A stretch of 23,091 nt of DNA, taken from positions 1 to 23,091 of the IMG/VR virus record IMGVR_UViG_3300028548_001845. The stretch is one strand, 5' to 3'. This DNA is from a virus. Below, piece by piece: positions 2,771-5,226 of the stretch; position 1 is the stretch's first letter; every line of letters begins with the position of its first letter. The position numbers were made by a program, and so were the translations under genes. The notes under the pieces are model-generated. The model made no database searches. It was not told where the DNA came from and was given only the letters and a program-made list of their open reading frames with translations.

Positions 2771-3268
2771 TTAAAATGGTACATCGTCTTTAAGTATTTC
2801 ATCAACGCTTTCAGCTTTAGCATCTAATACTTTTCTGACTAAGTTATCTATTTGTTGAAACTCTGAATCAGTTGGTACTTTGCCACCTGACATATACGAA
2901 GCTATAAGATTACTCATAGTCAATCTATACTTTTCAGAAAATTGATCTGGAGTACTTCTAACTGCGTAATTAGTATTAGCTGTGTTGGCAGAATAAGTTG
3001 CAGTAACAGGAGCTGATCCTGAATTATCAGACAACTCACTTAAGCATTCTATTCTAGAAGCAGTTTGATATTGTTTGCCAGTCTTACTTGTTCTAACTGG
3101 TTGTGCATCAATTTTTAGTCTTGCTCCCTTCGGCCATCTTGATGAGCCTAAAGCTTCACCATACACAGTCATGTCTGTTCCATCATCTTTAGTGATGTAA
3201 ACAGTAACTTGACCATCATCTTTCTCGAATGCTTTTTTAAATGCACATTCAAATGTTTCGTGTTCCAT
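2771..3268 (-). CDS. Predicted single-stranded DNA-binding protein with SSB-type C-terminal tip
   Basis: This 165-residue protein has a compact N-terminal part (about 1-95) rich in beta-type segments (QVTVYITKDDGTDMTVYGEA, then a GxRLKIDAQPVRTSKTGKQY stretch), a Ser/Ala/Asn/Thr-rich linker (about 95-115), a helical segment, and the C-terminus ILKDDVPF. The end closely matches the acidic, Phe-terminated tip of bacterial SSB proteins (DDDIPF), which recruits partner enzymes. I infer an SSB-like role during replication or recombination; the fold itself is not certain. The start at 3268 is chosen because AGGAGA lies 6-7 bases before it; an in-frame ATG at 3316 lacks such a site. It lies between the exonuclease gene and a strand-specific terminator. 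Confidence 0.7.
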   Translation of the reverse strand: MEHETFECAFKKAFEKDDGQVTVYITKDDGTDMTVYGEALGSSRWPKGARLKIDAQPVRTSKTGKQYQTASRIECLSELSDNSGSAPVTATYSANTANTNYAVRSTPDQFSEKYRLTMSNLIASYMSGGKVPTDSEFQQIDNLVRKVLDAKAESVDEILKDDVPF

Positions 3269-3328
3269 GTTGGTTCTCCTATTTATTTGTTTTATTATTT
3301 TTCCAAATTTCTGCATTCATTCTTATAC

Positions 3329-4090
3329 TTAATTATGAGCTTCTTGCCAAATCATTTTTGCAAAATCTGCAGCATCTGGAGATCCTTTCCATCTAAAGTT
3401 ATCCATAGTTAATGGAAACATTTTGACAACATCTTCTCTTGTTTTAGCTAACTTGATACAATGTTCTATAGATCTCATACCATTGATGATAGTATCTAAA
3501 TGTCCCTCTCTGCCTTCCATATCTACGCTGTGAACGTCTTTGTAAGAACAATACAGTAGAGCTGTCGGTTTATTAAAAAGGTCTTTGTACAGGGCTTGTT
3601 GACGCAAATCAGCATCTTTTGGGTACCATCTGCTATCTACAGCACCAGATTTAAGTCTTTTAATGTAAGCAGTAGCTTTAGTATCTATGATTACATCTTC
3701 AAACTCAAAGTCAGTAACACCTTTTACATCATACTTTAAGCCATATTTATCACCAGGAATTGTAATTTCTCTTTGATAAGAAATAACTTCTCCAAATTGA
3801 GGAAGTTCTTTTACAAATTGATTTGCAATTATACCAGACCAAAGACATTCGTCATCAGACGCATCACCTTTTAGTTCTATATATTTGGATTTTGCATAAT
3901 CTATGATAACTTCTTCATCAGTGATTTTATTTTTTAAAGCATGTTCAGCAGATTGTTCTGCAACACTACCCATTTTCATACGTGCGTTTGCTTCAGACTT
4001 AAAGTCATATAAATTATTAATTATCCAGTAAGGTGGAGAATCAATAAAACTATTAGTTCTTGAAGCACTATGTCTATATTCAATTTTCAT
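3329..4090 (-). CDS. PD-(D/E)XK exonuclease, RecB/Cas4-like
   Basis: The 253-residue protein carries the RecB-family nuclease signatures in order: a GSVAEQSAEHAL helix (about 41-52, with a His at 50), GVTDFEF with Asp127, the VIIDTKAT strand with Asp136 and Lys138 (the DxK metal-binding core), and RQQALY (163-168), fitting the QxxxY motif. Such enzymes degrade DNA ends and in phages usually act in recombination or host-DNA turnover. Directly downstream lies the SSB-like gene, the pairing seen in many phage recombination modules, although no annealing protein of a known family is visible. ATG at 4090 has AGGAAAA about 7 bases upstream and is preferred over an in-frame ATG at 4120. It is divergent from the plus-strand island, with only 42 bases between starts. 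Confidence 0.85.
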   Translation of the reverse strand: MKIEYRHSASRTNSFIDSPPYWIINNLYDFKSEANARMKMGSVAEQSAEHALKNKITDEEVIIDYAKSKYIELKGDASDDECLWSGIIANQFVKELPQFGEVISYQREITIPGDKYGLKYDVKGVTDFEFEDVIIDTKATAYIKRLKSGAVDSRWYPKDADLRQQALYKDLFNKPTALLYCSYKDVHSVDMEGREGHLDTIINGMRSIEHCIKLAKTREDVVKMFPLTMDNFRWKGSPDAADFAKMIWQEAHN

Positions 4091-4132
4091 ATTTATTTTC
4101 CTATGGTTATTAATGTTCAACGTTATTGTAGT

Positions 4133-4402
4133 ATGTCTTATAGTGTATCACTTGATACATTAAAAGGTAAAAAAACAGTTAAGAATACTAAAGAATATAA
4201 GATATATAATCTAAGTATTTTAATGTCTTGGCTTTTGCACCCTACACAGGTGTACGGGTGTAAGAGCACTATTGCTCGTCTCCATGATTGTAATAAAAAC
4301 AGAGTGTATAGATTAAATAAATTATATAATAATAACGAAAAATTTAGATCTTTCGTTGATAAAGCATTAATTCATTATAAAATATCTTATGCGTCACATT
4401 GA
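4133..4402 (+). CDS. Small basic hypothetical protein, first gene of plus-strand island
   Basis: An 89-residue basic protein. The C-terminal half (about 42-80) has the look of a small helical DNA-binding unit: a KSTIARLHDCNKNRVYRLNK stretch, where an STIARLHD helix is followed by a basic helix. This is a shape-based suggestion only; I do not recognise the family. The start at 4133 was chosen over in-frame ATG codons at 4070 and 4103 because those would run into or against the divergent exonuclease start. No good ribosome-binding site precedes it. A 16-base inverted repeat lies within its first codons. It overlaps the next gene by 14 bases. Confidence 0.55.
   Translation: MSYSVSLDTLKGKKTVKNTKEYKIYNLSILMSWLLHPTQVYGCKSTIARLHDCNKNRVYRLNKLYNNNEKFRSFVDKALIHYKISYASH
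4144..4159. promoter_or_regulatory. Operator-like inverted repeat in divergent region
   Basis: TGTATCA-CT-TGATACA is a perfect 7-base-arm inverted repeat with a 2-base centre, the geometry of a site for a homodimeric helix-turn-helix protein. It lies about 50-70 bases from the exonuclease start and just inside the first plus-strand gene, so binding there could control both directions. A role as operator is inferred. Confidence 0.45.
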
Positions 4403-4889
4403 AAAACCAGAGCTCATTTCAACTATATTAGATAAACGTAAAGTATGGTTAAATATTAGAGAATCTCGTTTAATGTATATGTATCATCGTAAGCTTATAT
4501 CTATTGAAGAATATGAAGCTGGATCTCGTTATCGCCTTATGTGCGAACTTCAAGGTGGTGGAACTGGCAATGTTCTAAAAGAACGAATTGACAATTCTAA
4601 CACAGACTTTATAACATCTTCTCTTGGTGCTGCCTTAGCAGTTAAAGAAGTTGATGACGAACTTGGTAAAAGAGTATCTACAATTATGAAGTTGTTTTGT
4701 CATTTTAATTTTGGTATCATTGAGATAGCTTATCATTTAAGTTTAACAGAACGCAGAGCATCTAACCAAGTACATGAAGGGCTATCAGACTTAGCAGTAT
4801 ATTATGGCTACAAAAAAGTGCACAATACTATCAGAGGACAAGGTACAAAGAATCAAAGACAAAGAGTACCTAAAGTGGGTATCATCTAA
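4389..4889 (+). CDS. Possible helix-turn-helix regulator, unknown family
   Basis: This 166-residue protein has a charged N-terminal half and, at about residues 95-137, a helical region (FGIIEIAYHLSLTERRASNQ followed by VHEGLSDLA) that reads like a sigma-region-4 or Q/ArpU-type helix-turn-helix. In such proteins a helix with an Ala-X-X-Leu core is followed by a turn and a recognition helix. A role as a late-transcription activator or antiterminator would fit its place in a separate plus-strand island between early modules, but this is inference without a confirmed family. The C-terminal 29 residues are encoded in the same DNA as the start of the HNH gene, in another frame. ATG 4389 is the first start; no strong ribosome-binding site is seen, but it overlaps the upstream gene by 14 bases. 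Confidence 0.6.
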   Translation: MRHIEKPELISTILDKRKVWLNIRESRLMYMYHRKLISIEEYEAGSRYRLMCELQGGGTGNVLKERIDNSNTDFITSSLGAALAVKEVDDELGKRVSTIMKLFCHFNFGIIEIAYHLSLTERRASNQVHEGLSDLAVYYGYKKVHNTIRGQGTKNQRQRVPKVGII

Positions 4890-5226
4890 TCCATGTATTC
4901 TTTGCCAGAACACACAGTCTCAAGCTCACCACGTTACTTTTGCTATGCCTAGAGGTTTCTCACAGAAAGTTGGAGATCAATTTACTGTACCTCTTTGTTA
5001 CAAGCATCATCACCAATTACATACTAATGGTATGAGTGAAAAAGATTTTTGGATTAAATTAGATATAGATCCTGTAGATATTTGTGGTAAATTCTATCAA
5101 CATTACCATGATATGTGGAAGAATAAGAACTTTTTTTATGACGATTCTATGCTTTGGCGTACTGTTTATGATGATCTTGTACCTAAGATACAAAACAATA
5201 TTGACTTTTTGCTGCAACCCAAATAA
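4804..5226 (+). CDS. HNH-type nuclease, DUF968/Ref-like
   Basis: The 140-residue protein has the DUF968/Ref arrangement: a helix with KDKEYLKWV (18-26), the zinc pair C31-x2-C34 (NPCILCQ), the AHHVTF core with H42 and H43, a G-D segment, then VPLC at 62-65 with H68-H70 and H73 (CYKHHHQLH), and an FW near residue 82. These are the residues expected for a zinc-stabilised HNH nuclease; P1 phage Ref is a RecA-dependent example. The role here could be DNA nicking in recombination, packaging or host-DNA breakdown. ATG 4804 is the only ordinary start before the conserved core, so the gene must overlap the upstream gene by 86 bases, an unusually long out-of-frame overlap. No clear ribosome-binding site is seen. 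Confidence 0.8.
   Translation: MATKKCTILSEDKVQRIKDKEYLKWVSSNPCILCQNTQSQAHHVTFAMPRGFSQKVGDQFTVPLCYKHHHQLHTNGMSEKDFWIKLDIDPVDICGKFYQHYHDMWKNKNFFYDDSMLWRTVYDDLVPKIQNNIDFLLQPK

Follow-up and report, generated by a model that had tools for sequence, protein, structure and literature searches.

The stretch of DNA analyzed here raises the question of whether two adjacent phage genes, one for a putative exonuclease and one for a small protein whose C-terminus resembles that of bacterial single-strand-binding (SSB) proteins, represent a minimal recombination system, and which partners such a C-terminus would serve. The window, i.e., the whole stretch of DNA analyzed, comprises a virus record of 23,091 bases that is classed as linear, features a GC content of 33%, and represents a fragment of an uncultured phage. 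Its right half encodes a terminase, an SU10-type portal protein (PF23899, E-value 1.9e-224), and an SU10-type major capsid protein. The nearest relatives of this capsid protein were found in Manatee Spring phage records and in Pelagibacter phage HTVC106P at just 54–55% identity, so that no sequenced isolate is closely related to the window phage.

The nuclease and SSB-like genes

Both open reading frames described in the earlier note were present on the minus strand as given there, the SSB-like frame lying directly downstream of the nuclease gene and ending in ILKDDVPF. The following features were assigned to the locus:

2771..3316, minus: gene of the SSB-like protein, 181 aa from the ATG at 3316 or 165 aa from the ATG at 3268
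2774..2788, minus: SSB-type tip DDVPF, conserved in relatives and disordered in the AlphaFold (AF2) model
2786..2953, minus: two-helix C-terminal domain, residues 106–161, with the near-invariant motif EKYRLTMSNL (AF2, conservation)
3035..3268, minus: predicted OB-fold domain, residues 1–78 (AF2, Foldseek)
3269..3316, minus: conserved basic N-terminal leader MQKFGKIIKQINRRTN, in frame (pN/pS, conservation)
3276..3280, minus: Shine-Dalgarno-like site AGGAG, 7 nt upstream of the ATG at 3268
3329..4090, minus: predicted RecB/Cas4-type PD-(D/E)XK nuclease (exonuclease), 253 aa (motifs, AF2 model, Foldseek, PHROG match)
3587..3601, minus: nuclease QxxxY motif, Q164-Y168, invariant in the alignment
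3677..3712, minus: nuclease motif region from D127 to D136-T-K138, invariant in the alignment
4804..5226, plus: HNH nuclease, 140 aa, PF06147 (DUF968), E-value 2.3e-15, positions 81–146 of 171

The earlier designation of the first gene product as a RecB/Cas4-like nuclease was borne out by its invariant motifs and its predicted fold. In an alignment of 18 diverse relatives, the residues E45, D127, D136-x-K138, and Q164-x3-Y168 were invariant, and this set of E, D, DxK, and QxxxY is the motif set of RecB/Cas4-type PD-(D/E)XK nucleases. The AF2 model was confident (pLDDT 88.6, pTM 0.83), and its top PDB matches determined with Foldseek were Cas4 SSO0001, ACE1, Dna2, RecE, AdnAB, and AddAB. Furthermore, three of the 18 family members reached phrog_69, annotated as ‘exonuclease’ (best E-value 9.6e-5); the Pfam search with the ORF at 3329–4090 (minus) matched no family, and tblastn against isolated phages retrieved no relative. 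An invariant or near-invariant cysteine was absent from the alignment of the 18 sequences, and with it the four-cysteine signature of Cas4 and AddB, which makes an iron–sulfur cluster of this kind unlikely. Kinship to a DUF2800-like nuclease or to the nuclease of HTVC106P was also considered and discarded, as these comparisons yielded weak local alignments around the motifs and nothing more. The nuclease–SSB pair also occurs in the relative L194, whose contig (88,284 bases) exceeds twice the usual length of 39 kb; the nuclease of L194 features an altered WYPK segment.

The reading frame of the SSB-like gene remains open upstream to the ATG at 3316, located 12 bases past the nuclease stop codon, which adds 16 codons. 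The leader MQKFGKIIKQINRRTN encoded by these codons is conserved across subfamilies, and its pN/pS value was 0.30 in frame as opposed to 3.16 and 0.88 when the two alternative frames are read, arguing that the leader is very probably translated. The true N-terminus of the protein is probably situated 16 codons upstream of 3268, or two starts are used; the position of AGGAG seven bases before the inner ATG makes two protein forms possible. A clear Shine-Dalgarno site was not recognized for the ATG at 3316, and initiation at the leader may require coupling to the stop codon of the nuclease gene.

A predicted OB fold with an SSB-type tip

The earlier note had proposed a diverged or new SSB family and suggested looking for an OB fold by structure prediction. 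Such a fold was indeed predicted: the AF2 model features strands at residues 4–15, 21–27, 32–37, 50–55, and 66–77 with a short helix at 42–44 (local pLDDT 71–87), followed by a disordered linker (79–107), two helices (106–127 and 134–161), and a disordered tail. The model as a whole is of medium confidence (mean pLDDT 69.8, pTM 0.41). Almost all Foldseek matches in the PDB were OB-fold proteins, with TM-scores of approximately 0.35 normalized to the query, among them the AspRS/LysRS anticodon domains, ExoVII, RPA, the mtSSB Rim1, and RecO. The OB fold is to be regarded as a well-supported prediction, not as a fact.

As the earlier note had remarked, the body of the protein is not an obvious SSB, and the libraries searched did not connect its sequence with any known SSB. 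Searches against Pfam, PHROGs, NCBIfam, PADLOC, and PDB sequences returned only sub-threshold chance matches, including weak PDB profile matches located in the linker and helical region that were likewise treated as chance. No match to the bacterial-type SSB family PF00436 was obtained in the window (10 of 14 control genomes were positive), and the protein had no Pfam match to the gp2.5-type or DUF2815 families. Neither the protein nor its distant subfamily retrieved a relative from isolated phages (tblastn, E-values up to 1), a scan of one genome collection detected neither the SSB-like family nor the nuclease in bacterial or archaeal genomes, and a profile comparison of the family with the cassette SSBs of related phages found nothing. 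One viral protein in BFVD (48% identical) belongs to the family, and the carriers of the nuclease–SSB family are uncultured phages, mostly of marine origin. The proposal of a diverged or new SSB family is upheld by the predicted OB fold, the tip, and the libraries lacking a match, but the identity of the protein as an SSB stays a prediction.

Conservation of the C-terminus was pronounced. Among 79 distinct C-termini of the family, 77 end in PF and 63 in [DE][DE]xPF, compared to one PF and no [DE].PF among 1,123 distinct C-termini of unrelated ORFs from the same loci; the tip is thus not a product of chance, and its earlier description as SSB-like was confirmed. The expectation that the tip is conserved while the body diverges applied to the tip, but not to the body within the main clade, and was rejected in this wording: mean pairwise identity in that clade amounts to approximately 82% for the OB domain, 67% for the helical domain, and 94% for the last two residues, the linker being the least conserved part with 35%. 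Strong divergence of the OB domain appears between subfamilies only, with both the helical motif EKYRLTMSNL and the tip being maintained; in the distant subfamily (overall identity about 31%), the OB domain is hardly alignable, whereas QWKEKYRLTMSNLLSS and the tip are retained. A fold unrelated to OB folds together with an unconserved tip, named earlier as the outcome speaking against the proposal, was encountered on neither count.

Linkage, neighboring genes, and the search for an annealase

The nuclease and SSB-like genes were adjacent and on one strand in all 206 loci holding both, representing 115 distinct protein pairs; the distinct count is used here, since some loci overlap on the same contig. 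Wherever a locus held a single one of the two genes, this gene was located at or near the contig edge. In all 135 loci with sufficient flanking sequence, a DUF968-type HNH gene was found upstream of the pair in divergent orientation, and the term ‘pair’ may understate the module, the HNH nuclease being as constant a neighbor as the two genes are to each other. The HNH protein scored 57.5 bits against PF06147 (cut-off 27.8), identifying the HNH domain, and the match was restricted to positions 81–146 of 171, so that an Orf-like N-terminal DNA-binding domain was not recognized by sequence. DUF968 proteins are described as Orf-family proteins with an additional HNH domain, and YbcN, a member of the Orf family, binds to the C-terminus of SSB (PMC4118853). 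Two further small ORFs accompany the genes: a 108-aa protein of no known family (2133–2459, minus) lies downstream of the SSB-like gene on the same strand in 131 of 135 loci, and a 110-aa ORF (4070–4402, plus), antisense to the nuclease gene and overlapping its start, is present in 128 of 135.

In 13 long relatives, whose completeness is unproven and several of which are near 39 kb, profiles for Erf, RecT, Sak, Rad52, and AAA_24 (Sak4-type) remained without a hit above cut-off; many of the small genes of these relatives lack an assignment. The earlier statement that no standard annealing protein is encoded nearby was therefore extended to these relatives, as far as recognizable families are concerned; an annealase of an unfamiliar family may be hidden among the numerous small genes lacking an assignment. 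In three long relatives, scanning of early-region proteins revealed none of the known types of polymerase, helicase, primase, or annealase. Compared to Red/RecET-type recombinases, the dedicated exonuclease is present, as predicted from motifs and fold, and a RecT/Erf/Sak/Rad52 annealase was not found. An Erf match in the relative G003 (14.8 bits) was sub-threshold, contained a stop, and was rejected as chance. DUF932 proteins occur in two distant relatives only (L151:2383–3276, plus; G016:C1:17061–17723, minus), i.e., in 2 of the 13 long relatives, which is not general enough for the missing annealase. L151 also encodes a DnaA domain IV-like protein at 4180–4704.

Proposed function and comparison with known systems

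Taken together, the earlier interpretation was supported in part. The best reading of these results is, with good probability, that the locus encodes an end-resecting exonuclease and a diverged SSB of the phage, with a tip to which host and/or phage partners are recruited. The Cas4/RecE-type nuclease would resect the ends of the phage DNA and expose single strands, which the OB domain of the phage SSB would coat, the helical domain probably serving oligomerization or cooperativity. The acidic xPF tip on its flexible tail would then dock partner proteins, the likely clients being host proteins that bind SSB tips, e.g., RecO, replication restart, primase, or clamp-loader factors, and possibly also the co-encoded exonuclease and the HNH nuclease. 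The single-stranded DNA would be handed to host RecA, or the SSB might anneal strands itself as T7 gp2.5 does, leading to recombination-dependent replication, concatemer formation, or end repair. Regarding the individual parts, it appears very likely that the SSB-like protein binds single-stranded DNA and quite likely that its tip provides SSB-type partner docking, and the module probably acts in recombination or replication of phage DNA.

The tip might also serve host partners only, the protein acting in replication as an SSB by which the host replisome is directed to phage DNA, and its position beside the nuclease reflecting operon organization rather than a physical contact. This alternative is a credible one, although we lean somewhat against it. 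The tip is indistinguishable from those of bacterial SSBs and, being generic, would by its residues confer no specificity for the phage nuclease; moreover, host factors are needed, as no phage polymerase, helicase, or primase was recognized among the early proteins of the three long relatives. Given this lack, also of an annealase, and the generic bacterial tip, host SSB-tip clients represent the economical guess. However, the adjacency is invariant over the 115 distinct pairs, deep subfamilies included, which goes beyond the usual loose operon membership, and in related phages, too, a tipped SSB directly follows the nuclease. A direct contact between the tip and the co-encoded exonuclease, as suggested by the invariant linkage, is at present a tentative idea.

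A complete two-component recombinase, in which the OB protein is the annealase following the logic of T7 gp6 and gp2.5 and the helical domain forms the annealing oligomer, seems unlikely, as does the annealase activity of the SSB-like protein itself. Such an arrangement would fit the profile searches in the 13 long relatives, given that phages with related capsids encode an annealase within the cassette, and the extra helical domain is strongly conserved; but the protein does not match the gp2.5-type or DUF2815 families, sequence cannot judge annealing, and host RecA could do the job. We regard as improbable a self-sufficient pair, i.e., a new SSB family that recruits the exonuclease via its tip and anneals strands in place of a RecT/Erf/Rad52-type annealase. 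A role of the nuclease in host-genome degradation or counter-defense, with the OB protein shielding phage single-stranded DNA from it, is a possible pairing of nuclease and protective SSB to which no tool result points specifically; it is very unlikely, considering that equivalent cassettes in related phages sit with annealases and that no defense-system model matched above background. OB folds bind RNA and proteins too, and AspRS/LysRS OB domains were among the top fold matches, but the tip, the adjacency to a DNA nuclease, and the cassette context all favor single-stranded DNA, leaving an RNA- or protein-binding domain with a convergent tip highly improbable.

The proposed exonuclease–SSB module is of relevance, as its SSB-like family has been missed by Pfam, PHROGs, and NCBIfam, occurs in widely sampled uncultured phages, and is invariantly tied to the nuclease. 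It is probable that DNA repair or recombination in these phages proceeds in the absence of any usual annealing protein. If annealase-free, the small cassette would allow asking how recombination and concatemer formation take place in phages lacking polymerase and recombinase genes, and whether the partners drawn in by phage SSB tips come from the host or the phage. It might also be of use as a recombineering tool for AT-rich marine bacteria.

Among known systems, the RecE/Cas4/AddB-type nucleases (phrog_69) share the E...D...DxK...QxxxY motifs and the fold with the window nuclease, which differs from them by the lack of conserved Fe–S cysteines, of a helicase domain, and of a Pfam match. Phage Orf/DUF968 proteins are represented beside the pair by their HNH part only. 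T7 gp6 and gp2.5 form a known exonuclease-plus-SSB pair without a separate annealase. T7 gp2.5 and DUF2815 (Enc34 ORF6) resemble the window protein as phage OB-fold SSBs with an acidic C-terminus, in T7 also with an exonuclease alongside; the window protein differs in its bacterial-type DDxPF tip, in the plain five-strand OB fold followed by a helical domain, and in sequence. Enc34 ORF6 demonstrates that OB-type phage SSBs escaping recognition do exist (PMC5686142).

Phages with related capsid genes provide a further comparison. Three consecutive genes of Methylophilales phage Venkman encode a SAK-like protein, a nuclease of the YqaJ type, and a protein of 100 aa with the C-terminus EDVPF, and MW202462 encodes Erf, an exonuclease of YqaJ-like appearance, and a canonical SSB ending in SDIPFN. 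As in the window, the exonuclease is directly followed by a PF-tipped SSB-type protein, whereas in the window no Sak or Erf was recognized, and neither the nuclease nor the SSB falls into the sequence families of these cassettes. By analogy, the window module looks like an annealase–exonuclease–SSB cassette minus the recognizable annealase.

With bacterial and phage SSBs of PF00436, e.g., that of phage HK620, the window protein shares the predicted OB fold, the flexible linker, the acidic PF tip, and recombination-type neighbors. It differs from PF00436 members by undetectable sequence similarity and an extra conserved helical domain between OB fold and tip, as well as by its conserved basic leader; an annealase partner was not found. 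The last six residues of the HK620 SSB (NDYPPF) are needed to bind and stimulate the neighboring recombinase Sak4 (PMC5928155), and, by analogy, this SSB–Sak4 couple is the closest tested precedent for the window module. The locus encodes a member of a new SSB-like family within a known kind of module that lacks a recognizable form of the usual annealase.
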